Assembly: GCA_017478965.1 (NCBI GenBank) | Contig: JAFVCV010000039.1 | Location: 62,001-126,000, forward strand | Direction: 5' to 3' | DNA: 64,000 nt | DNA from: Ruminococcus sp. | GTDB lineage: Bacteria > Bacillota > Clostridia > Oscillospirales > Ruminococcaceae | Shown: positions 2,704 to 64,000 of the stretch, one piece after another | Layout of the letters: each line of letters begins with the position of its first letter | Numbering within the stretch: the stretch's first letter is position 1 | The notes under the pieces: model-generated | What the model saw: the letters and a program-made list of their open reading frames with translations, nothing else | Told to the model about the DNA's origin: nothing | Database searches by the model: none | Position numbers and translations under genes: made by a program

Positions 2704-5046
2704 ATGAGCGACAAGCCAACTGTCAGAATGAAAACAAGGCTGAATATATGGCTTTGCATACCGGTGCTTTTACTCCTTATCTACATGATCTGGGGTATAT
2801 ATAAGGTGTCCATAAAGGAGGGGGCCAAGTGGAAGGCGCTGGCAAATTCACAGCAGCTGAAATCCACGGTGGTGCCGGCCTCCAGGGGGACGATCTATGA
2901 CTCCAACGGGAATGTGCTGGCGCAGAGCGCTACGGTGTATACCATCTATGTTGACCCCATCATGCTCAGAGACCAGCTGAAACTGAGAGACAGCAGGATA
3001 AAGGAGCTGGAGGGAGCCATCAAGGAGGAGGACGATGAGGACAAGATAAAGGAATACAAGGAGGAGCTGAGCCTCAGTCTTGACAGTGAGGAGACCTTCG
3101 AGGCCCTGGTGGACTTCCTTGCGCAGGAGCTGGAGATAGGAAAGCCGGAGCTGAGGATAAAGCTGACGGACTATTCGAGCCAGTATATAGTGCTGAAAAA
3201 GGACATCGACAAGACCATGAGAGACGAGATAGACAGCAAGCTGACGGAGCTCAGGATCGACGGCGTCAGGGGCGAGCCTAACGTCAAGAGGGTCTATCCG
3301 CAGAACTCTTTAGCGGCGAACGTCCTGGGCCATACGGACTATACAGGCGACGGCGTTTACGGGCTGGAGGCATATTATAACGATTATCTCAGCGGCGTTG
3401 ACGGCAGGGTGGTCACCGCCAAGGATAAGGACGGGAACGAGATACCCTACCGCTATAAGCAGAGCTATGACGCACAGGACGGCAACGACCTGATACTCAA
3501 TATCGACATAAATATCCAGTATATGCTGGAAAAGGCTCTGGAGAAATGCTATGAGGAGCATCAGCCTGCCTATAGGATATGCTCCATCATAATGAACCCG
3601 CAGACAGCACAGGTCTATGCTATGGCGACCACCTACAGCTATGACCCCAATAAGCCTGCGATCATAACCGATAAGGAAACAGCCGCAAAGCTTGCTCTGC
3701 TCAATGAGGACAGTGAGGAGTATCAAAAGGCACAGCTGGACGCATGGAGCGTTCAGTGGACCAACAAGGCCGTTTCTGAAATATATATCCCCGGTTCGGT
3801 ATTCAAGATAATAACCGCATCTGCGGCCCTGGAGGAGGACGCAGTCAGTCTGGAGGATACCTTCTACTGCGGCGGTAAGATAACCGTAGAGGGCTGGGAT
3901 AAGCCTATCCACTGCTGGACCGCCGGGGACCACGGCTATCAGACACTGCCAGTGGCTATGGCCAATTCCTGCAACCCGGCTTTCGTGCAGATAGGCCTGA
4001 GACTGGGGAAGGATAATTTCTTCAAATATTACGACGGCTTTGGATACAGGGAACTTACGGGCATAGATCTGCCGGGAGAGGTAAATTCCTACAGTATGAC
4101 CCCGGAGCGCATGGGCGTGGTAGAGCTTGCTTCGTCCTCCTTTGGCCAGACCAATAAGGTCACGCCTATACAGATGATAACCGGCGTTTCTGCTGCGGTC
4201 AACGGCGGCTATGTGCTCACCCCGCAGGTTGTGGACTCTATCGTTGACCCCAACGGGAACGTGGTGAAGAAGAACGAGCCGGTGGTCAAGAGACAGATAA
4301 TCTCTGAGGAGACTTCAGCCACCATGAGAGAGATACTCAAAGGCGTGGTGGATACCAACAAGAGCACCAACGCCTATGTACAGGGCTACAGCATCGGCGG
4401 TAAGTCCGGTACCTCACAGAAGCTGGACCTTATCGGCGGCGAGGAACTTTATGTGGCCTCCTACTGCGGTTTTGCACCGGCAGAGGACCCTCAGGTCATA
4501 ATGCTGGTCATGGTGGATCAGCCTACGGGGGATAATTTCTATGGAAGCCAGGTGGCAGCGCCGGTCTGCGCAGAGGTGCTCAGCGAGGTACTGCCCTATC
4601 TGGGATTTTTCCCGCAGTATACTGAGGAAGAGCTGCAGTATGTCAGCATCAATGTCCCCAATGTCCAGTACTATACTGTTGACGAGGCTGTTTCGACCTT
4701 GCAGGAGCTGGGCTTTGAGGTGAAGATAAAGGGAGAGGGCGATACCGTCATAAGGCAGACGCCTTCGCAGGTCAAGATAGAACACGGCGGCTCGGTGGTG
4801 CTTTACACCGATGATAAGCAGGAGATAGAGAAGGTAACGGTACCCAATCTGGAGGGGCTGACACGACAGCAGGCCAAGGAGGCTCTGGAAGCCTACGGAC
4901 TGAACCTGGTCTCTGAGGGACTGGGTATGGACACCGAGGAGGACGCCTATGCCTTAGGGGACCAGAGCTATGCTCCCGGGACCAGCGTGCCCATCGGCAC
5001 CGCTGTGACCGTGACCTTCAATACCGCCACCGTGGCTTCCTGGTAA
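2704..5046 (+). CDS. ftsI: Class B penicillin-binding protein with two PASTA domains (FtsI/SpoVD type)
   Basis: A septal peptidoglycan DD-transpeptidase of 780 aa. It has a short cytoplasmic N-terminus, one membrane anchor (about 11-33), a PBP dimerisation domain, and a penicillin-binding domain with all three motifs: SVFK at 365-368, SCN at 422-424 and KSGT at 567-570. Two PASTA domains end the protein (about 647-705 and 711-778). The dimerisation region contains an inserted acidic coiled-coil-like segment (about 100-150). AAAGGAGCGG precedes the ATG. PASTA-tailed class B PBPs in this position are either the vegetative FtsI/Pbp2B or the sporulation SpoVD. No second copy is in the window, so the vegetative role is more likely. 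Confidence 0.93.
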   Translation: MSDKPTVRMKTRLNIWLCIPVLLLLIYMIWGIYKVSIKEGAKWKALANSQQLKSTVVPASRGTIYDSNGNVLAQSATVYTIYVDPIMLRDQLKLRDSRIKELEGAIKEEDDEDKIKEYKEELSLSLDSEETFEALVDFLAQELEIGKPELRIKLTDYSSQYIVLKKDIDKTMRDEIDSKLTELRIDGVRGEPNVKRVYPQNSLAANVLGHTDYTGDGVYGLEAYYNDYLSGVDGRVVTAKDKDGNEIPYRYKQSYDAQDGNDLILNIDINIQYMLEKALEKCYEEHQPAYRICSIIMNPQTAQVYAMATTYSYDPNKPAIITDKETAAKLALLNEDSEEYQKAQLDAWSVQWTNKAVSEIYIPGSVFKIITASAALEEDAVSLEDTFYCGGKITVEGWDKPIHCWTAGDHGYQTLPVAMANSCNPAFVQIGLRLGKDNFFKYYDGFGYRELTGIDLPGEVNSYSMTPERMGVVELASSSFGQTNKVTPIQMITGVSAAVNGGYVLTPQVVDSIVDPNGNVVKKNEPVVKRQIISEETSATMREILKGVVDTNKSTNAYVQGYSIGGKSGTSQKLDLIGGEELYVASYCGFAPAEDPQVIMLVMVDQPTGDNFYGSQVAAPVCAEVLSEVLPYLGFFPQYTEEELQYVSINVPNVQYYTVDEAVSTLQELGFEVKIKGEGDTVIRQTPSQVKIEHGGSVVLYTDDKQEIEKVTVPNLEGLTRQQAKEALEAYGLNLVSEGLGMDTEEDAYALGDQSYAPGTSVPIGTAVTVTFNTATVASW

Positions 5047-6544: not shown

Positions 6545-7909
6545 ATGGAAAAAATAAAACTGTCTGAGATAATAGCTGCGGTCAGAGGGAGCTATGGCTA
6601 CCCCGCAGATATTGAGATAGCGGATATATCAACAGATACCAGGACCATAACTAAAGGCTCGGTGTTCATAGCACTTCGGGGTGCCAATTTCGACGGACAT
6701 GAGTTCGCCGTGAAGGCCATGAAACAGGGTGCTGAGGCGGTGGTCACTGAAAGGCCGGTGGAGGGAGCCAGGTGTATAATAGTCGATTCCACTGCCCAGG
6801 CTCTGCTGGACGTGGCGTCGTATTACAGGAGCAGGTTCCGGATACCGCTGGTGGGCGTTACAGGCAGCGTAGGCATGACAACTACCAAGGAAATGATAGC
6901 CTGCGTCACGGCAAGGAAGTTCAGTACCCTTAAAACTGAAGCCAACCATAATAACGAGGTGGGTATGCCCAAGACCCTTTTGCAGCTTGACAGCAGCCAC
7001 GGCGCCGCCGTCATCGAGATGGGGATGAACCACAAGGGCGAGATATCCAGAATGTCCATGTGCTGCAAGCCTACGGTCTGCGTCATAACCAATATCGGCG
7101 TTTCTCATATAGAGAACTTAGGCAGCCAGAAGGGGATATTGCAGGCCAAGCTGGAGATCCTGGACGGGGCCGCTACAGATGCGCCGCTGATAGTCTGCCG
7201 TGACGACAGACTGCTCTCTAAGGTGGAGCTTTACGGTGAAAGGAAGAAGATATGCTATTCCGCCGCAAAGACCGACTGCGATGTTTTTGCCACAGACATC
7301 GTCACCGATAAGGATAAGGTGAGATTTAAGATAAACTTCGGCGGCAGCAGCTATGATGCCGTCATAAACTGCCTGGGCGAGCATAATGTGAAAAACGCCC
7401 TGGCCGCCTTCTGCGTGGGGACCGTTCTTGGGATAAGCCCGGAGGAGATAGTGGCAGGACTGGGAGATTTCAGGCCCGAGGGCATGAGACAGAACCTGAC
7501 GGAAAAGGACGGCGTGACCTATATACTTGACTGCTATAACGCCGCACCGGACTCCATGAAGGCCAGCCTTTCCATACTGTCACTGGCGAAGGCTGAGGGC
7601 AGGCGCTGGTGCGTACTGGGGGATATGCTGGAGCTTGGGAAGGGCTCGGCAAAGTATCACAGGACCGTGGGTGAGTACGTAAGCGCTTCTAAGGCCGACA
7701 GACTGCTGTGTTTCGGGGAAAATTCGGTGAACTATATCGCCGGGGCCGTAGACAAGGGCTTTGATGCAGAAAACGCCAGGCATTTTGACACCCGTGAGGA
7801 GCTGGCCGAGTATCTGAGAGCCAATATCCGTAAAGGTGACGCTGTTCTTTTCAAGGGAAGCAGAGGAATGAAACTGGAACAGGTCTACGAGCTTGTCACG
7901 GGCAGCTGA
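6545..7909 (+). CDS. murF: UDP-MurNAc-tripeptide D-Ala-D-Ala ligase MurF with altered P-loop
   Basis: MurF adds D-Ala-D-Ala to UDP-MurNAc-tripeptide, the last cytoplasmic step before the lipid stage. The 454-aa protein has the N-terminal MurF domain, the central ATPase domain and the C-terminal Mur ligase domain. The ATP-binding loop reads GSVGMTTTKE at residues 107-116: Met111 occupies the position of the invariant P-loop Lys, encoded by ATG (6875-6877) where AAG is expected. The rest of the protein looks intact, including the NHNNEVG motif near residue 137. AAGAGGTGGG precedes the ATG. Either a neighbouring Lys compensates, the enzyme is impaired, or the base is a sequencing error. Confidence 0.92.
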   Translation: MEKIKLSEIIAAVRGSYGYPADIEIADISTDTRTITKGSVFIALRGANFDGHEFAVKAMKQGAEAVVTERPVEGARCIIVDSTAQALLDVASYYRSRFRIPLVGVTGSVGMTTTKEMIACVTARKFSTLKTEANHNNEVGMPKTLLQLDSSHGAAVIEMGMNHKGEISRMSMCCKPTVCVITNIGVSHIENLGSQKGILQAKLEILDGAATDAPLIVCRDDRLLSKVELYGERKKICYSAAKTDCDVFATDIVTDKDKVRFKINFGGSSYDAVINCLGEHNVKNALAAFCVGTVLGISPEEIVAGLGDFRPEGMRQNLTEKDGVTYILDCYNAAPDSMKASLSILSLAKAEGRRWCVLGDMLELGKGSAKYHRTVGEYVSASKADRLLCFGENSVNYIAGAVDKGFDAENARHFDTREELAEYLRANIRKGDAVLFKGSRGMKLEQVYELVTGS

Positions 7910-7911
7910 GC

Positions 7912-8937
7912 TTGGATATAAAACAGCAGACGGCGGTGCTTTTAACAGGCTTGGCAGCAGGGGCCGTTCTCACCAGGGCCTGTATACCGCCGCTGAGAAA
8001 GATAAGGACAGGCAGATTTGAGGCCTATCTGGGAGACAGGCTGAAAAAGGACGGCTCGGAGCCGAGAATGGGCGGGGCTGTGATATTTGCGGCGATCGTG
8101 CTGGGACTGGCTGTGGGGACCGCTGCCGGGGCTGCGGTAAGGGCCAGAGAAGTCCTCTGTCTTGTGATGTACCTGTTCATGCTGACCGGAGTGGGATTTC
8201 TGGAGGATATCCAGAAGGACACCGGAGGCGGCCCGGGCATGAAGGACGGATACAGGCTTTTTATCAAGCTGGGGGCCAGCGCAGGGTTCTGCGCTGTGAT
8301 GAAGGCTTTCGGACATAGCTGCGGCGTTCTGGTGCTGCCTTTCCGTATGGGGACGGTGGGGCTGGGTGCCGCTGAGATCCCGATAAATGCGGTGCTTATG
8401 ACAGTGCTCATCACCGCCGTGGAGGTCCACGACTGCCAGAGGGGCTATCACGGGACCGGGGTGGACGGACTGTGTCTTACCTCTGTCACGGTGGGTATGC
8501 TGGGGCTGGGTGCCGCAAGCGCCGTGATAAACAGCTCCGATGACAGCGCCCAGCTTTTAGCGCTCAGTACTGCGGCGGCCTGCGGGGCGTTCCTGATATG
8601 GTCCATGGCGCCGTCGAAGATATACCCCGGTCAGTCGGGGAGCCTTTTGCTGGGGGGCGCTCTGGGGGCGGCGATGATACTGTCTTCCATGCACCTGGGG
8701 ACCTTTTTCTGCGCAGCGGCAATGCTTGCAGACGGAGCCTGTGCGGCGGCAGAAAAGCTGGTGTTCATAAAGACGAAAAAGCTGCTTTTAAAGGGAGCCT
8801 CGCTCCATGAGCATCTGAGGGCCTTGGAATGGTCCGAATATAAAATAATAGTCTTGGCAGCCCTTTTGCAGGCGGCCGGGGCCGTAGGGGCCGCAGCGAT
8901 GGCGGTCTATGAGAGCAAACTTTTGATAAACAATTAG
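7912..8937 (+). CDS. Degenerate MraY-like membrane protein in the dcw mraY slot
   Basis: A polytopic protein of 341 aa in the usual place of mraY, between murF and ftsW. Family landmarks are recognisable but eroded. The DGSEPRMGG stretch corresponds to the GTPTMGG motif; LED at 97-99 replaces the LDD pair; HGTGVDGL (180-187) replaces N-x-x-D-G-x-D-G, with Thr182 where the Asp should be; GQSGSLLLGG has Gln241 in place of the metal-binding Asp; and LHEHL (H299, E300, H301) replaces the three-His loop. MraY transfers phospho-MurNAc-pentapeptide to undecaprenyl phosphate; this copy probably cannot. It starts with TTG three bases after the murF stop, so it is translationally coupled. A MraY with intact acidic motifs lies at 62010-63050. 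A structural or regulatory role is an inference. Confidence 0.8.
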   Translation: MDIKQQTAVLLTGLAAGAVLTRACIPPLRKIRTGRFEAYLGDRLKKDGSEPRMGGAVIFAAIVLGLAVGTAAGAAVRAREVLCLVMYLFMLTGVGFLEDIQKDTGGGPGMKDGYRLFIKLGASAGFCAVMKAFGHSCGVLVLPFRMGTVGLGAAEIPINAVLMTVLITAVEVHDCQRGYHGTGVDGLCLTSVTVGMLGLGAASAVINSSDDSAQLLALSTAAACGAFLIWSMAPSKIYPGQSGSLLLGGALGAAMILSSMHLGTFFCAAAMLADGACAAAEKLVFIKTKKLLLKGASLHEHLRALEWSEYKIIVLAALLQAAGAVGAAAMAVYESKLLINN

Positions 8938-8950
8938 GGGGACAGGACTT

Positions 8951-10186
8951 ATGCCCGATACCAAAGGCATTTACCGTGAGCGGGACGGCGGACTGGTCTA
9001 CAACAACCGCATACCGGTCATAAAAAAACAGAACTCAAAGCGCAAAAAGAAAAACTGGAATTTCAGATTTATCACCAGCGGCATCGACAAACCGTTCCTG
9101 ATACTGATACTGGTGCTGCTGGTCTTCGGCATCGTCATGATGTTCTCGGCCTCCTTCGCCTGGGGACTGAGCGACGAGGGCGACGGGTATTTTTATGCCA
9201 GAAAGCAGGTCATCTTTGCCCTGATGGGACTGACGGGTATGCTGCTGGTGTCCTTTCTGGACTATCATTTCTATCAGAACGCATCTATCTGCTACGCATT
9301 CTATATTATCATGTTCATAGTCACGGTCTATGCGGCTCTTTTCGGCTCCTCGACGGCCGATGCGAGCAGATGGATAGACCTGGGCTTTGTTCAGTTCCAG
9401 CCATCGGAGCTGCTGAAGGTCGCCTTTATAATCATTTTTGCTTATATAATGTCGGTGAACTACCGCAAGTTCACTGACTGGCGATACTGCGTGATACCTT
9501 TTATGATAATACTTGGCATCACCGTGGGTGTACTGGTAATGCAGAGACACCTTTCCGCCGTGCTCATAGTGGGCGTCATCGGCGTGAGCATGATGTTTGT
9601 CAGCGGTATGCCGGCAAAGACCTTCTGGAAAGTCATGGCAGTGCTGGCCGTTATGGCTGGCCTGGGACTGCTGGTGCTGAAGGCTATCGGAAAATTCGGC
9701 TATATAGAAGACAGGTTGGTCAGCTGGAGGAACCCGGAATCGGATATCCAGGACACTACCTGGCAGACCTACAACTCTCTGCTGGCTATCGGCTCCGGAG
9801 GATTTTTAGGTCTTGGCTTCGGTGAGTCGAGACAGAAGTTCCTTTATCTGCCCGAAGCACAGAACGACTTCGTTTTCGCCATCATCTGCGAGGAGCTTGG
9901 ATTTGTGGGAGCCGTGGTGGTCATAATACTGTTCGTTATGTTCGTGCTCAGGGGATTTTATATCGCCTCCAATGCCAAGGACAGGTTTGGCATGATGGTG
10001 GCGACGGGCATAACTATCCAGATAGGCATACAGGCATTCCTGAACATAATGGTGGCCTCCAATTCCTTTCCCAACACGGGTATATCCCTGCCATTTTTCA
10101 GCTACGGCGGCACGGCGCTGATAATCCAGCTGGCTGAGATGGGAGTGCTTTTGAATATTTCAAGACAGGGTAATATAAAGAAGTAG
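8951..10186 (+). CDS. ftsW: SEDS peptidoglycan glycosyltransferase FtsW/SpoVE
   Basis: A SEDS-family membrane glycosyltransferase (411 aa, about ten transmembrane helices) that polymerises lipid II together with its class B PBP partner, encoded upstream in this operon. It has a basic cytoplasmic N-terminus of about 45 residues, then MMFSASFAWG at the first helix. The QPSEL motif and the C-terminal NTGISLPFFSYGGTALI signature are typical. FtsW and the sporulation paralogue SpoVE cannot be told apart from sequence alone. ATG at 8951 has a GGGGGACAGG ribosome site and follows the degenerate mraY by 13 bp. Confidence 0.93.
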   Translation: MPDTKGIYRERDGGLVYNNRIPVIKKQNSKRKKKNWNFRFITSGIDKPFLILILVLLVFGIVMMFSASFAWGLSDEGDGYFYARKQVIFALMGLTGMLLVSFLDYHFYQNASICYAFYIIMFIVTVYAALFGSSTADASRWIDLGFVQFQPSELLKVAFIIIFAYIMSVNYRKFTDWRYCVIPFMIILGITVGVLVMQRHLSAVLIVGVIGVSMMFVSGMPAKTFWKVMAVLAVMAGLGLLVLKAIGKFGYIEDRLVSWRNPESDIQDTTWQTYNSLLAIGSGGFLGLGFGESRQKFLYLPEAQNDFVFAIICEELGFVGAVVVIILFVMFVLRGFYIASNAKDRFGMMVATGITIQIGIQAFLNIMVASNSFPNTGISLPFFSYGGTALIIQLAEMGVLLNISRQGNIKK

Positions 10187-10292
10187 TATTTTTAACAAAA
10201 TAAGTGCTATAATAGTATGATAAAAATGGGGCGGAGTGCCCCGTTTGTCAGATCGCAGTCACAAAATGCCAATGATAAGTGAGGTCAAGATC

Positions 10293-11426
10293 ATGCCCAG
10301 AGTTATAATGGCGGGCGGCGGCACCGCAGGACACGTAAATCCTGCCCTGGCCATCGCTGAGATAATCAAGGATAACTATCCCGACAGCGAGTTCTGCTTT
10401 GTGGGGAACCCGGAAAAGCTGGAGGCAAAGCTTGTGCCCAAGGCCGGGTACAGGTTCGAGCCGTTACAGATAGAGGGCTTTCAGAGGAAGATAAACGCAG
10501 AGAATATCAAAAGAAATCTCCATGCCGCCATGTGTCTGGCAAAGTCAGGCAGCAGGTGCAGAAAGATAATAAATGAATTCAGGCCCGACCTGGTCATCGG
10601 CACCGGGGGCTATGTCTCGGGACCTATAGTGCGTGCTGCGGCTAAGATGGGGATAAAGACCGCTGTCCATGAACAGAACGCTTTTGCGGGGGTGACAAAT
10701 AAGCTCCTTTCCAAAAAGGCCGATGTGGTCATGATGACCGTGGGGGAGTCGGAGAAGTATTTCCCGCAGGCTAAGAAGTGCGTGACTACCGGGCTGCCTG
10801 TCAGGGGTATGTTCGGGAGGATCTCGAAGGAAGAGGCCAGGAAGGAACTGGGTATACCTGAGGACGCAACGGTGGTCCTTTCCGCCGGTGGCAGTCTGGG
10901 GGCCAAGGTCCTTAACGAGAACATCGCAAAGCTCTTCAGATGGTATCAGCAGGAAGGAAGACTGGTATACCATATCCATTCCTACGGCACCTATAAGGAC
11001 TATGAGAATTATATAGACGACTGTGAAAAGCAGGGCATAAGGATAAACGGCAACGATCTGCTGAGGGTCAGCAGCTATGTGGATATGCCAAAGGCTATGG
11101 CGGCCTGCGACCTTATCATCACCAGGTGCGGCGCTGCATCTCTGGCGGAGATAGAGGCCATGGGCAGATGCTCCATACTCATCCCCTCGCCCTGGGTAGC
11201 GGAGAACCATCAGTATCATAACGGCATGGTGCTGCAAAACGCCGGTGCGGGCGTGGTCATAGAGGAAAAGGACCTGACCGGTGACAGGTTCATCGAAACG
11301 GTCAGGAGCTTTATAGATGACAAGGAAAAGCTGAGAAAGTGCTCAGAGGCCGCAAGGAGTCTCTATATCACTGATACGCCAAAGAGGATAGCAGAGGCCC
11401 TCAGGCCGCTTATCGGGAACAAGTAA
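10293..11426 (+). CDS. murG: UDP-GlcNAc:lipid I N-acetylglucosaminyltransferase MurG
   Basis: MurG makes lipid II on the inner face of the membrane. The 377-aa GT-B enzyme has the N-terminal GGGTAGHVNPALA loop, the HEQNAFAGVTN motif, the SLGA loop of the second domain and the C-terminal RCGAASLAEIEA donor-binding region. I chose ATG at 10293 because GTGAGGTC lies before it and the product begins exactly at the family start; the frame stays open upstream to 10236. The last dcw gene before it ends at 10186, and a TATAAT at 10208-10213 without a good -35 could add local transcription. Confidence 0.95.
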   Translation: MPRVIMAGGGTAGHVNPALAIAEIIKDNYPDSEFCFVGNPEKLEAKLVPKAGYRFEPLQIEGFQRKINAENIKRNLHAAMCLAKSGSRCRKIINEFRPDLVIGTGGYVSGPIVRAAAKMGIKTAVHEQNAFAGVTNKLLSKKADVVMMTVGESEKYFPQAKKCVTTGLPVRGMFGRISKEEARKELGIPEDATVVLSAGGSLGAKVLNENIAKLFRWYQQEGRLVYHIHSYGTYKDYENYIDDCEKQGIRINGNDLLRVSSYVDMPKAMAACDLIITRCGAASLAEIEAMGRCSILIPSPWVAENHQYHNGMVLQNAGAGVVIEEKDLTGDRFIETVRSFIDDKEKLRKCSEAARSLYITDTPKRIAEALRPLIGNK

Positions 11427-13879: not shown

Positions 13880-13915
13880 TTGCCAGGAACAGAAAAAACA
13901 GGAAGGAAGAAGAAA

Positions 13916-15088
13916 ATGAGCGGGACGACTAAGGGCAGGCCGGGAGCTAAGAAAAGGCCGAATATCAGGGTCTTTTATGCACTGGCAGCTGTGATAGCCG
14001 CTATGATAGTGCTGATACTGTGTATGACAGTGTTTTTCAATATCACAGAGGTAAGGGTCGAGGGAGTCAGCGTGTACAAAAAGGACCAGATCGTCAATAT
14101 CGGCGGCATCGTCAAAGAAATGAATCTGGTAAGGACTGACGTCCATAAGGCGGAGCAGCGGCTGAAAGATAACCTGGTCTATATAGACGACGTGACTGTT
14201 AAGAAGTCTTACCCCTCGTCAGTGGTCATAAGCTGCAAGGAAGCCGTCAAAGCGGCGGATATCAGCTATGATGACGGATACTATGTGCTTTCTGAGAGCG
14301 GAAGGATATTGGAGTCGGCCAACCCGGAGCCTACTGGAGGGATACTTGTAATAGAGGGCTTTTCATTCTATCAGGGGGCCGACATCGAGGAAAAGATGAA
14401 GTACGAGATGACCGAGAAGGAAGCGGAGGAGTTCCGCAAGAGCTTCAGACAGCCGGGGAATGAGCTGCAAAGCGAGGACGGTTACAGCCATAAGATAGTC
14501 ACCGACCTGCTCAGTGAGCTGAGAGAGCAGGGGTATAAGAACGTCGTTGATATCAACATCGGGTCGAGAGCAGACATAAGGATAAATATTGACGACAGGA
14601 TAGAGATAAAGATGGGCAGCTCAGCGGATATCGAGTATAAGCTCAGCTATTTCAGAGCCGTTATGGGGTCCCTGGCGGAGGACTATGAGGGGACACTTAT
14701 CTATAACGGCGCAGAGAGCGGCGTTTCGGCTATCCCTAAGGACAAGAACTATGACAGGCCCAGGCTTTCCAATGACAGCAGGAACAGCTCCGGCGCCGAC
14801 AGCTCCTCAGCGGAAGATCTCATCGGAGAGCAGGGAACTGACAGCCAGGAGAGCCTGCCCGCAAGCACCGAGCCTGATGACGGCGGCGGACAGTACTACT
14901 ACGATCCGGGCTATGATCCGGGCTATACGGACCCAGGCTATTATGACCCCGGTTATTATGAACCGGGATATTATGACCCGAATTACAATGACCCGGGATA
15001 TTACGACGGATATGACCAGGGCGGTCAGTGGGACCAGGGCGGCGGTTATCAGGATTATCAGAGCTGGGACAATAATTATGGATGGTAG
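13916..15088 (+). CDS. ftsQ: FtsQ/DivIB divisome protein with repetitive Tyr-rich tail
   Basis: A bitopic division protein of 390 aa: basic cytoplasmic N-terminus, one transmembrane helix (about 20-42), then a POTRA domain (FFNITEVRVEGV onward) and a beta domain. With FtsL and FtsB it scaffolds the septal synthase. The last 90 or so residues are unusual: a Ser/Asp/Glu-rich linker is followed by DPGYY-type repeats and a Gln/Trp/Tyr-rich end. This segment would lie outside the membrane. ATG at 13916 was chosen for the AGGAAGGAAG before it; the frame stays open upstream. It is followed by the ftsZ promoter. Confidence 0.88.
   Translation: MSGTTKGRPGAKKRPNIRVFYALAAVIAAMIVLILCMTVFFNITEVRVEGVSVYKKDQIVNIGGIVKEMNLVRTDVHKAEQRLKDNLVYIDDVTVKKSYPSSVVISCKEAVKAADISYDDGYYVLSESGRILESANPEPTGGILVIEGFSFYQGADIEEKMKYEMTEKEAEEFRKSFRQPGNELQSEDGYSHKIVTDLLSELREQGYKNVVDINIGSRADIRINIDDRIEIKMGSSADIEYKLSYFRAVMGSLAEDYEGTLIYNGAESGVSAIPKDKNYDRPRLSNDSRNSSGADSSSAEDLIGEQGTDSQESLPASTEPDDGGGQYYYDPGYDPGYTDPGYYDPGYYEPGYYDPNYNDPGYYDGYDQGGQWDQGGGYQDYQSWDNNYGW
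14894..15003 (+). repeat. DPGYY-type repeat in the ftsQ tail
   Basis: In-frame tandem units of four to five codons (DPGY, DPGYY, EPGYY, DPNYN) occur about eight times. Codon choice varies between units, for example GATCCGGGC versus GACCCGGGA. The repeat therefore seems kept at protein level rather than being a recent DNA slippage product. Confidence 0.8.
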
Positions 15089-62009: not shown

Positions 62010-63050
62010 ATGATCTACAAATGGCTATGCACCTATGTTATAAACGATATGAACGGCATCGGGGAGGTCACGGACAAGCTGCCGGCCAGATGGTCGCTGT
62101 TCCTGGCCCTTATGCTCGCTTTCAGTTTCGGGGCGTCTTATCTGGCCCTCAGGTATCTGAAAGCCATCCTCCCCAAGGACCAGGGCAGGGAATTTGCGGT
62201 CAACGGCGAACTGTCCCAGGGCAAGGCCAGGGGCTGCGGACTGCTGTTCATCACGACTTTTACCTTTGCGGCGGCCCTGTTCGTGCCGCTGACGGTGGAA
62301 TATATCGTATACCTGGTCTGCATCTACGGCGCTATGCTTACGGGCTATTTTGACGACGCCGCCAAGGTCCCCTGGGGGAACCTTAAAAAGGGCCTTTTCG
62401 ACCTTGCCATCTCAGTGGGCGTCGCTGTGGACTACTGGTACTTTAACGGCTCCGATGTGAAGGTGCCTCTGTTCGGCCTGAAGTTCCACATACCGGCGGT
62501 CATTTTCATCGTGCTTGCCGGGGTGCTGGTCTGGACCTCTATAAACGTGACCAACTGTTCAGATGGCGTTGACGGCCTTTGCTGCACACAGGTCATGGTG
62601 GTGCTGGTCTCTCTGGTCATAACGTCCGGTGTCCTTTCGGGGAATATGAGCAGCTCTTTTTTCAGTCTCATACCTCTGGTGATGCTTGCCACCCTGGCGG
62701 CTTACCTCTGGTTCAACTGCTCCCCCAGCTCCATGCTGATGGGAGATGCCGGCTCAAGGGCCTTAGGCGTTCTGCTGGCGGTGCTGTTTCTTCTGAGCCG
62801 GGCGCCGTTCAGCTTCATACCCCTGTGCCTGGTGCTGATACTTGACGGAGGGCTGAGCCTGCTGAAAGTCTCTTTCATAAGATTTCTCCACATGAAGGAT
62901 TTCATGAAGAATATCCGCACGCCTATCCACGACCATGAGAGAAAGAACAAGGGCTGGTCTGACACTCAGGTGGTGCTAAGGTTCGTCATTATCCAGGCTG
63001 TCATCAGCCTTTGCTATATCGGCGCTGCAAACTGGGCGCTCATATACTGA
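62010..63050 (+). CDS. mraY: Phospho-MurNAc-pentapeptide transferase MraY (intact acidic motifs, outside dcw)
   Basis: MraY transfers phospho-MurNAc-pentapeptide to undecaprenyl phosphate, making lipid I. The 346-aa polytopic protein keeps the acidic set: Asp115-Asp116 in GYFDDAAK, NCSDGVDGL with Asp185 and Asp188, and MGDAGS with Asp246. The loop corresponding to PLHHHFE reads PIHDHE (H307, D308, H309), followed by the GWSDTQVVLRF tail. The FAVNGELSQGKARG opening is family-like. ATG at 62010 has GAAGGAAAG before it. It stands alone with its own promoter, far from the dcw cluster, and is the best candidate for the working enzyme. Confidence 0.9.
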   Translation: MIYKWLCTYVINDMNGIGEVTDKLPARWSLFLALMLAFSFGASYLALRYLKAILPKDQGREFAVNGELSQGKARGCGLLFITTFTFAAALFVPLTVEYIVYLVCIYGAMLTGYFDDAAKVPWGNLKKGLFDLAISVGVAVDYWYFNGSDVKVPLFGLKFHIPAVIFIVLAGVLVWTSINVTNCSDGVDGLCCTQVMVVLVSLVITSGVLSGNMSSSFFSLIPLVMLATLAAYLWFNCSPSSMLMGDAGSRALGVLLAVLFLLSRAPFSFIPLCLVLILDGGLSLLKVSFIRFLHMKDFMKNIRTPIHDHERKNKGWSDTQVVLRFVIIQAVISLCYIGAANWALIY

Positions 63051-63086
63051 GTCTTGAATTGCTCTTTCAGACGGGAGGGGACTGAG

Positions 63087-64000
63087 ATAAAGGGCATTAT
63101 AAAGAAATATTTCAAATATGTGCTTGATGTGGGCTTTATAGTGCTGGTGCTCTTCCTCACTTACCGCCTGCTTTTCAAGGGACAGGAGATCTCAGAGATA
63201 CTTAAAGACATTCGCCATGCGTCACCGGGCTGGATAGTATCCGGCGGTGCGGCAGTGTTCTTTTTCATAGCAGGCGAGTCCTGCATAATCTTCTATATGC
63301 TGAAAGTGTTCAGGCAGAAGATAAGGTTTTTGAGCTGTCTTAAATATTCCTTCATAGGATTTTTTTTCAGCTATATCACCCCTTCCTCCTCGGGAGGGCA
63401 GCCTGCGCAGATGTACTACATGAAAAAAGACGGTGTGAAGATAGGTTTCTCCACCCTGGTCATGCTGGTCATAACCATCGCTTATAAAGCGGTGCTGGTG
63501 CTGCTGGGCCTGGTCCTTTTCGTGGTGAGGAACGATACTGTGGCCGAGTACGGTGACGGGCTGGGGTTCCTGCTGCCCCTGGGGGCGGTGCTGAACGTTG
63601 CCTTCATCGGCATACTGGCCTTCGTGTTTTTCAGGCCTGCCTATGCAAGACGGGCGGGCATAAAGGTCGTAAATGCGCTCACAGGTCTGGTGATAAGGCC
63701 GGAGAACAATGAGAGATACGTGTCCAGAATAACCCGTATCTGCGATACCTATACCATGGGCGCCACCTACGTCAGGGAGAATATGCACACTGTTGCCGTG
63801 GTGTTCCTTATGACCGTGGTGCAGAGACTCTGGCTGTTCTCGGTGACATGGATAGTTTATAAAGCCTATGGCCTTTCGGGAGTGAGCTTTATAGATATCG
63901 TCACCATGCAGGTAATGATAGGCGTGGCGGTGGAGATGCTGCCGCTGCCGGGGGCTGCGGGCATAACCGAGGGGTGTTTTATACTGGCCTTTACTGACAT
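63087..64000 (+). CDS. Flippase-like membrane protein (UPF0104/MprF N-terminal type), 3' end cut
   Basis: An open frame of over 300 codons runs to the window edge. It has at least seven hydrophobic helices, the SSSGGQPAQMYYM motif and the late PLPGAAGITEG motif of the lysylphosphatidylglycerol-synthase transmembrane domain family, which flips or handles lipids in the membrane. No ATG fits the start. GGGAGGGG at 63073-63080 lies six bases before an ATA at 63087; other choices are TTG at 63054 and GTG at 63120. It lies directly after mraY on the same strand, likely in one transcript. The end is missing. Confidence 0.85.
   Translation, partial: MKGIIKKYFKYVLDVGFIVLVLFLTYRLLFKGQEISEILKDIRHASPGWIVSGGAAVFFFIAGESCIIFYMLKVFRQKIRFLSCLKYSFIGFFFSYITPSSSGGQPAQMYYMKKDGVKIGFSTLVMLVITIAYKAVLVLLGLVLFVVRNDTVAEYGDGLGFLLPLGAVLNVAFIGILAFVFFRPAYARRAGIKVVNALTGLVIRPENNERYVSRITRICDTYTMGATYVRENMHTVAVVFLMTVVQRLWLFSVTWIVYKAYGLSGVSFIDIVTMQVMIGVAVEMLPLPGAAGITEGCFILAFTD

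Follow-up and report, generated by a model that had tools for sequence, protein, structure and literature searches.

A putative pseudo-MraY retained in the dcw cluster of Ruminococcus, with a divergent second MraY elsewhere in the genome

The DNA stretch analysed here, 64,000 nucleotides from Ruminococcus sp. (GenBank assembly GCA_017478965.1, contig JAFVCV010000039.1, positions 62,001 to 126,000; hereafter the window), carries two genes of the MraY family. One fills the mraY slot of the division and cell wall (dcw) cluster, between murF and ftsW. It encodes a 341-residue protein that, judging from its lost catalytic residues, is in all probability catalytically dead (7912..8937; all window coordinates refer to the + strand), and is called the dcw copy or pseudo-MraY below. 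The other, for which the name MraY2 was coined in this analysis, encodes a presumed working MraY of 346 residues (62010..63050) and lies about 53 kb away. The evidence for the pattern, in which a pseudo-MraY under selection recurs in the dcw cluster together with a divergent MraY2, is strong. We consider it likely that MraY2 took over catalysis and that the dead dcw MraY was retained for a non-catalytic role, a role that we infer.

Results and discussion

Catalytic residues and fold of the dcw copy

Both reading frames are present as described in a first-pass annotation of this DNA, and they are the sole PF00953 matches (E ≤ 0.001) in the whole assembly, which is 92.8% complete. With 55.4 bits (dcw copy) and 88.4 bits (MraY2) both exceed the Pfam gathering cut-off of 27, and both stay under the curated cut-off of the mraY model TIGR00445 (76.7 and 92.2 vs 192.05 bits); two MraY2-type proteins from other families reach 85.3 and 94.8 bits with the latter. 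The AlphaFold 2 model of the dcw copy has a predicted local distance difference test (pLDDT) score of 87.5, and its best Foldseek and VIA-align matches are MraY. Solved relatives at E ≤ 0.01 comprise four MraY sequences and no others. In comparison with MraY proper (TIGR00445, PF00953), the dcw copy is alike in predicted fold, length, murF–ftsW slot and, within the genus, the equivalents of D118 and D193/D196. It differs by the absence of the Mg-site Asp, of H325 and mostly of the base Asp, and by its TIGR00445 score, whereas MraY2 differs by its location outside the dcw cluster and its score below the same cut-off, though its acidic motifs are kept.

The residue numbers of Aquifex aeolicus MraY were transferred by alignment and from residues named in published passages. 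In the dcw copy of the window the base Asp (D117) is replaced by E98, leaving E98-D99 where the catalytic Asp-Asp pair is expected (8203..8208). The position of the Mg2+-binding Asp of the FMGD motif (D265) is taken by Q241 (8632..8634), and H299-E300-H301 stands instead of the HHH loop (8806..8814), the middle His being gone. These replacements had been listed in the first-pass annotation and are borne out by translation and alignment. That annotation also gave Thr182 for the Asp of the NxxDGxDG motif, which holds in an ungapped reading only: the family alignment puts an 8-residue insertion in D174-C-Q-R-G-Y-H-G-T-G-V-D185-G (8431..8469, ending in D185-G186), and D174 then matches the motif Asp.

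The losses were followed through a genus sample of 29 genomes, the window's included (genus g1), and further genera of the family. The Mg-site Asp is missing from 59/59 degenerate dcw copies read, representing 12 genera; with the predicted MraY fold, this agrees with the pseudoenzyme proposed earlier. Among the 28 genus copies the site holds Q (16), E (8) or R (4); 26 copies have lost the leading Asp of the pair, and the middle His is gone from all 28. The second Asp and D174 are retained throughout (28/28 each). Loop A carries the signature GDR..(K/Q)DGSEP..GG (residues 41–55, 8032..8076) in place of WHKxKxGTPTMGG, and an alignment of 18 of the 28 copies shows G41-D42-R43, D47, S49-E50, D174-C175, D185-G186, S242-G243 and H299, among others, to be invariant. 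A new enzyme, its site remodelled for another reaction (GDR..DGSEP, xDCxxG, KGxxLHxHL), would fit this genus-conserved signature and the slow loops described below. It is nevertheless very unlikely given the absence of the Mg2+-binding Asp from every copy read and of the first Asp from nearly all genus copies; moreover, the genus-type signature was not found in the copies of genera g29, g31, g79, g81 and g118.

Occurrence in genus, family, order and class

Exactly two PF00953 matches were obtained in 26 of the 29 genus genomes and one in the other three. Of the 29, 28 yielded the dcw copy, in each case as an open frame lying between MurF and FtsW; from G026 (76% complete) MraY2 was recovered and no dcw copy. 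Such recurrence of the same gene pair across the genus is more than chance. Named carriers of the dead copy include Ruminococcus albus 8, KH2T6 and AR67 as well as R. bicirculans 80/3.

In the family sample of 297 genomes, the MraY2 profile (A2, E ≤ 1e-20) matched 56. Three matches were dropped (about 1e-21, partial profile cover, a single canonical-strength PF00953 match), leaving 53 genomes of 17 genera. The dcw copy is degenerate in 12 of these genera, namely g1 and, with 31 genomes, g29, g31, g36, g50, g71, g79, g81, g109, g113, g118 and g126. It is lost in two, g64 and g74, where MurF is followed directly by FtsW in 8/8 genomes, and canonical in three, g19, g43 and g69; all these states were read from fetched slot sequences. 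Degenerate copies are paired with MraY2 in 56/59 genomes. Several of those from other genera fall below the PF00953 cut-off, and the g126 copies were missed by PF00953 and caught by a custom profile; as PF00953 alone could miss degenerate copies, inspection of the slot matters. In G239 (g36), which bears MraY2, neither dcw copy nor FtsW was recovered.

Two g69 genomes suggest that the balance may tip the opposite way in this genus: G187 carries the canonical copy and lacks MraY2, and G253 shows a canonical match with nothing for MraY2 at 1e-20. An MraY2 remnant in G253 (L144, approximately 3025–3219) is not claimed, its E of 0.002 arising among many queries and the PF00953 match there spanning stops. 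Two single cases may be added. The otherwise canonical dcw MraY of G070 (g43, L141) has FMGN for FMGD, perhaps an early inactivation step. The only PF00953 match of G130 (g103) is weak (E 1.1e-5) and may represent a further degenerate copy or a fragment at the end of a contig; MraY2 was not matched there at 1e-20.

The order sample (245 genomes) held one MraY2 genome outside the family, G516, the other six matches belonging to the family; the class sample (291 genomes) added nine. In the seven genomes of g297 (family f67), an MraY2-type protein alone exceeds the PF00953 cut-off, two genomes having a further match below it, and MurF and FtsW enclose no MraY-like frame. G683 has MraY2 alone, with MurF at a contig end and the slot out of view, and G745 and G516 carry canonical MraY alongside MraY2.

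MraY2 as the probable working enzyme

The acidic motifs of the second MraY (DD, N-x-x-D-G-x-D-G and MGD) are all present, as the first-pass annotation had stated. In the window they include the intact pair D115-D116 (62352..62357) and the Mg-site Asp D246 within MLMGDAGS (62745..62747); the HHH loop reads H307-D308-H309 (62928..62936), and the PTMGG motif of loop A is replaced. D117, D118, D193, D196, D265 and H324 are kept in 65/65 MraY2 proteins read (56 alignment rows plus nine from families f52 and f67). The HHH loop is H-D-H in 55/56 rows and H-D-Q in one, with H-D-H, H-D-E or H-E-E in f52 and f67. In 15 genomes (g64 4/4, g74 4/4, g297 7/7) nothing but MraY2 scores above the PF00953 cut-off and the slot contains no MraY-like gene; the eight of g64 and g74 still carry a penicillin-binding protein, MurE, MurF, FtsW and MurG. 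With no other over-cut-off candidate in these 15 genomes and the acidic motifs complete, MraY2 is, by elimination, very probably the working MraY.

Published passages name K70, F262 and H325 of A. aeolicus MraY as contacts of nucleoside inhibitors. MraY2 has G/A, L/M and D at these positions in 56/56 rows, the K70 column being poorly alignable, and the hand-over may thus have changed the sensitivity to MraY-directed antibiotics. It could be supposed from these differences that MraY2 was selected to escape nucleoside antibiotics or phage lysis proteins, the dead copy titrating the attackers as a decoy, and there is a structure of phage protein E bound to E. coli MraY (8g01). Pattern-based scans of viral_contigs with both alignments found no relatives, however, which also removed a phage origin from consideration; no phage, antibiotic or exposure evidence beyond these was sought or found. 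As a decoy need not retain synteny or a slow cytoplasmic face either, such a bypass has very little probability.

Selection on the dcw copy

All 59 degenerate copies read are open frames of 307–349 residues, ruling out frameshifted or truncated pseudogenes for these copies. Ratios of nonsynonymous to synonymous substitution rates (dN/dS) were obtained by Nei–Gojobori counting. For the dcw copy they amount to 0.06–0.23 in ten genus pairs and 0.14–0.27 in seven other degenerate pairs with usable dS, several dS values > 1 making the respective figures rough; one g29 pair was saturated, and one canonical pair gave 0.04. In the genus pairs the neighbours range from 0.01 to 0.15 and MraY2 from 0.03 to 0.11. 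Pair by pair the dcw copy is usually less constrained than its neighbours, with no higher dN/dS in a few cases. Still, it is clearly constrained despite its faster evolution. Lost catalytic residues thus coincide with purifying selection, as expected of a pseudoenzyme, and the 17 ratios together with the open frames sustain the earlier argument for retention over simple decay. That the dcw copy is kept for a protein function can be stated with considerable confidence.

A functionless dcw copy might alternatively decay slowly and persist only because an open frame is tolerated or required in the operon, for reasons of translational coupling or polarity. The faster evolution of the copy relative to its neighbours, its loss in g64, g74 and g297, and the relaxed cytoplasmic loops in five genera would be in line with this, as would the 4- or 1-nt overlap between the murF stop and the closest start codon in 15/28 genus genomes, a count that took the start nearest murF and is therefore biased toward coupling. 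We regard slow decay as quite unlikely, since dN/dS lies far under 1, every frame read is open, and new invariant residues have arisen in the genus. In addition, all eight g64 and g74 genomes have murF–ftsW junctions devoid of the copy; coupling thus does not require the frame.

For a comparison of rates within the protein, it was split into five cytoplasmic loops and the rest, with borders taken from the structure predicted for the window copy; in distant genera these borders depend on the alignment of very divergent sequences. Canonical copies (g69, g43, g19) show loop/rest ratios of 0.20–0.63. Ratios of 0.50–0.56 were found in g1 (ten pairs) and in g71, g113, g36 and g126 (one or two pairs each); g50 and g109 are represented by one genome each and did not enter the comparison. 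The former active-site face is thus still a functional surface, with new residues, in the Ruminococcus clade. In g118, g81, g29, g31 and g79, only the protein body seems to matter.

Rate covariation was analysed for six proteins in 26 genus genomes, i.e. 15 pairs. For the dcw copy the strongest covariation is that with FtsW (rho 0.43, p 0.002; one of the 15 pairs), carried by the non-loop part (0.45) more than by the loops (0.15). Covariation with MurE is weak (0.32), and none was observed with MraY2 (rho 0.02). The FtsW result is a suggestive lead to a partner only. MraY is a dimer in structures, and the dead copy could conceivably heterodimerise with MraY2 and control its activity as a regulatory subunit, in the manner of dead-paralogue activators. 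The co-occurrence of both genes in 56/59 genomes suits this idea, and dead paralogues that activate a partner do exist (PMC5201418). Against it, MraY2 stands alone in g64, g74 and g297, the rates do not covary, and the two genes are far apart in the window; regulation of MraY2 is accordingly an unlikely function.

One inactivation or several

The first-pass annotation had regarded the dcw gene as an eroded paralogue with the intact copy elsewhere. This view has to be reversed: by synteny the dcw gene is the original MraY, and the other gene belongs to a distant clade that took over. A recent duplication is ruled out by the 29% identity of the two proteins over 199 aligned columns and by MraY2 forming its own clade with a long stem in the MraY tree.

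A tree of genus relationships was built on MurF, FtsW and MurG. The sister genera of degenerate g118, g81 and g109 are canonical g3, g19 and g105, respectively; g79 falls within the g81/g19 group, which also holds canonical g42. The main clade contains g1, g36, g71, g113, g50, g64, g74 and g126; the placement of g29 and g31 is less certain. On the 38-row tree, an approximately unbiased test rejected one clade of all degenerate or absent rows (p-AU 3e-86), and the starred branches force at least five state changes. A single ancient inactivation is thereby rejected on this quick, three-protein tree. As the degenerate and absent states do not form one clade, several inactivations are indicated; no exact number is given because both trees are quick ones, the larger with long-branch warnings. 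Instead of repeated inactivation, the canonical gene may have been regained by transfer. MraY2 may have spread by descent or by transfer; in the MraY2 tree, g113, for instance, stands apart from g1, g36 and g71 at low support.

A proposed non-catalytic role

We propose the following sequence of events. In several lineages of the family, the divergent isoenzyme MraY2, encoded outside the dcw cluster, would have taken over the lipid I reaction. The original dcw MraY, relieved of catalysis, would then have lost the Mg-binding Asp and other catalytic residues, and the full-length membrane protein would have stayed between murF and ftsW because of a second, non-catalytic MraY role. In the Ruminococcus clade, the constrained cytoplasmic face, the nucleotide-precursor site in canonical MraY, carries the new lineage-specific signature. 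There the dead copy may bind a precursor or partner without turnover and help to hold or gate the lipid II/division machinery beside FtsW. According to published passages, MraY mutants without activity retain binding of the nucleotide precursor, E. coli MraY forms part of complexes with MurG and MreB, and Anabaena MraY binds FtsQ and other division and cell-wall proteins in two-hybrid assays. On these grounds a dead MraY could keep a structural or sensing role. A scaffold or sensor function of the dcw copy is plausible, falling slightly short of probable. The scaffold for MraY, FtsW or MurG suggested by the first-pass annotation is among the possible forms; the weak rate correlation favours FtsW, and there is none with MraY2. 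FtsW as the partner is a rather doubtful assignment.

Several observations weigh against this proposal. The assemblies of G010 (99% complete), G007 (80%) and G194 (85%) contain a degenerate dcw copy and lack MraY2. For scale, four of 221 good-quality family genomes lack any PF00953 match at 0.001, so assembly gaps do occur. The tree length of the dcw copy is 8.67 vs 2.69–4.55 for five other proteins in the 26 genus genomes, and the copy is dispensable in g64, g74 and g297, hence not universally needed. Its loops are not significantly slower in g118, g81, g29, g31 and g79 (ratio 0.81–1.41, one or two pairs each), and a ligand pocket is therefore no general explanation. The FtsW correlation, selected from 15 pairs, drops to rho 0.28 (p 0.16) on terminal branches. 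As to MraY2, its activity is deduced by elimination only, its single-sequence structure model reaches a pLDDT of only 46, and in 21 of the 53 family genomes, among them all those of g19, g43, g69, g79, g109 and g118, the protein is known from its profile match alone.

Degenerate LytM factors such as EnvC and NlpD are dead activators of a partner. Trypanosome prozyme is likewise a dead paralogue activating its partner (PMC5201418). The pseudo-MraY shares with these systems that a catalytically dead relative is kept by selection; it differs in being the original gene and not a duplicate, and in that its partner is putative. MglA, a distant MurG homologue outside the dcw cluster, substitutes for MurG (PMC8092295). 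It parallels MraY2 as a divergent isoenzyme away from the cluster that can do the job of the dcw enzyme. There, however, the substitute stands in for an active MurG, whereas in the present case many lineages have a dcw enzyme that is itself stripped of catalytic residues. In Clostridioides difficile, dcw genes for shape, elongation, division and sporulation (SEDS) proteins and class B penicillin-binding proteins are re-purposed, their peptidoglycan synthases being assigned to sporulation (PMC10693644); again a dcw gene is kept in place with a changed role, but these are peptidoglycan synthases, not dead enzymes.

Gene neighbourhood in the window

The pseudo-MraY gene begins with a TTG codon 2 nt past the stop of murF (6545..7909) and is followed by the ftsW-type SEDS gene (8951..10186) and murG (10236..11426). 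Further downstream, 13880–15088 encodes an FtsQ/DivIB-type protein (POTRA_1, FtsQ_DivIB_C) whose C-terminal tail consists of repeated YYDPGY-like units. Directly after MraY2 lies a gene for a PF03706 membrane protein that extends beyond the window end (63054..64000); the order continues with a CDP-alcohol phosphatidyltransferase and a phosphatidylserine decarboxylase (62010–63050 and L072:5054–7702). The PF03706 gene adjoins MraY2 in 25/26 other genus loci, the locus of G014 ending first, and was matched in only 4/29 MraY2 loci outside the genus.

Conclusions

Searches by titles and abstract starts in a collection of open-access PMC papers, which leaves out most subscription papers and preprints, gave no title on a dead MraY in the dcw cluster. 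As a broader and more tentative proposition, a structural or sensing role of MraY may be ancestral and separable from its catalysis, several lineages having unmasked this role independently via MraY2; the dead MraY would then be a dedicated lipid II/division component, and the hand-over would also have changed antibiotic sensitivity. MraY is both essential and a target of antibiotics, and any non-catalytic role is hard to test because deletion of mraY kills the cell. Here nature has seemingly split catalysis and the retained body into two genes, apparently several times, and cultured Ruminococcus (R. albus, R. bicirculans) make a non-catalytic MraY role directly testable. For these gut bacteria, the finding also calls for caution against annotating or targeting the gene in the mraY slot as a working MraY.
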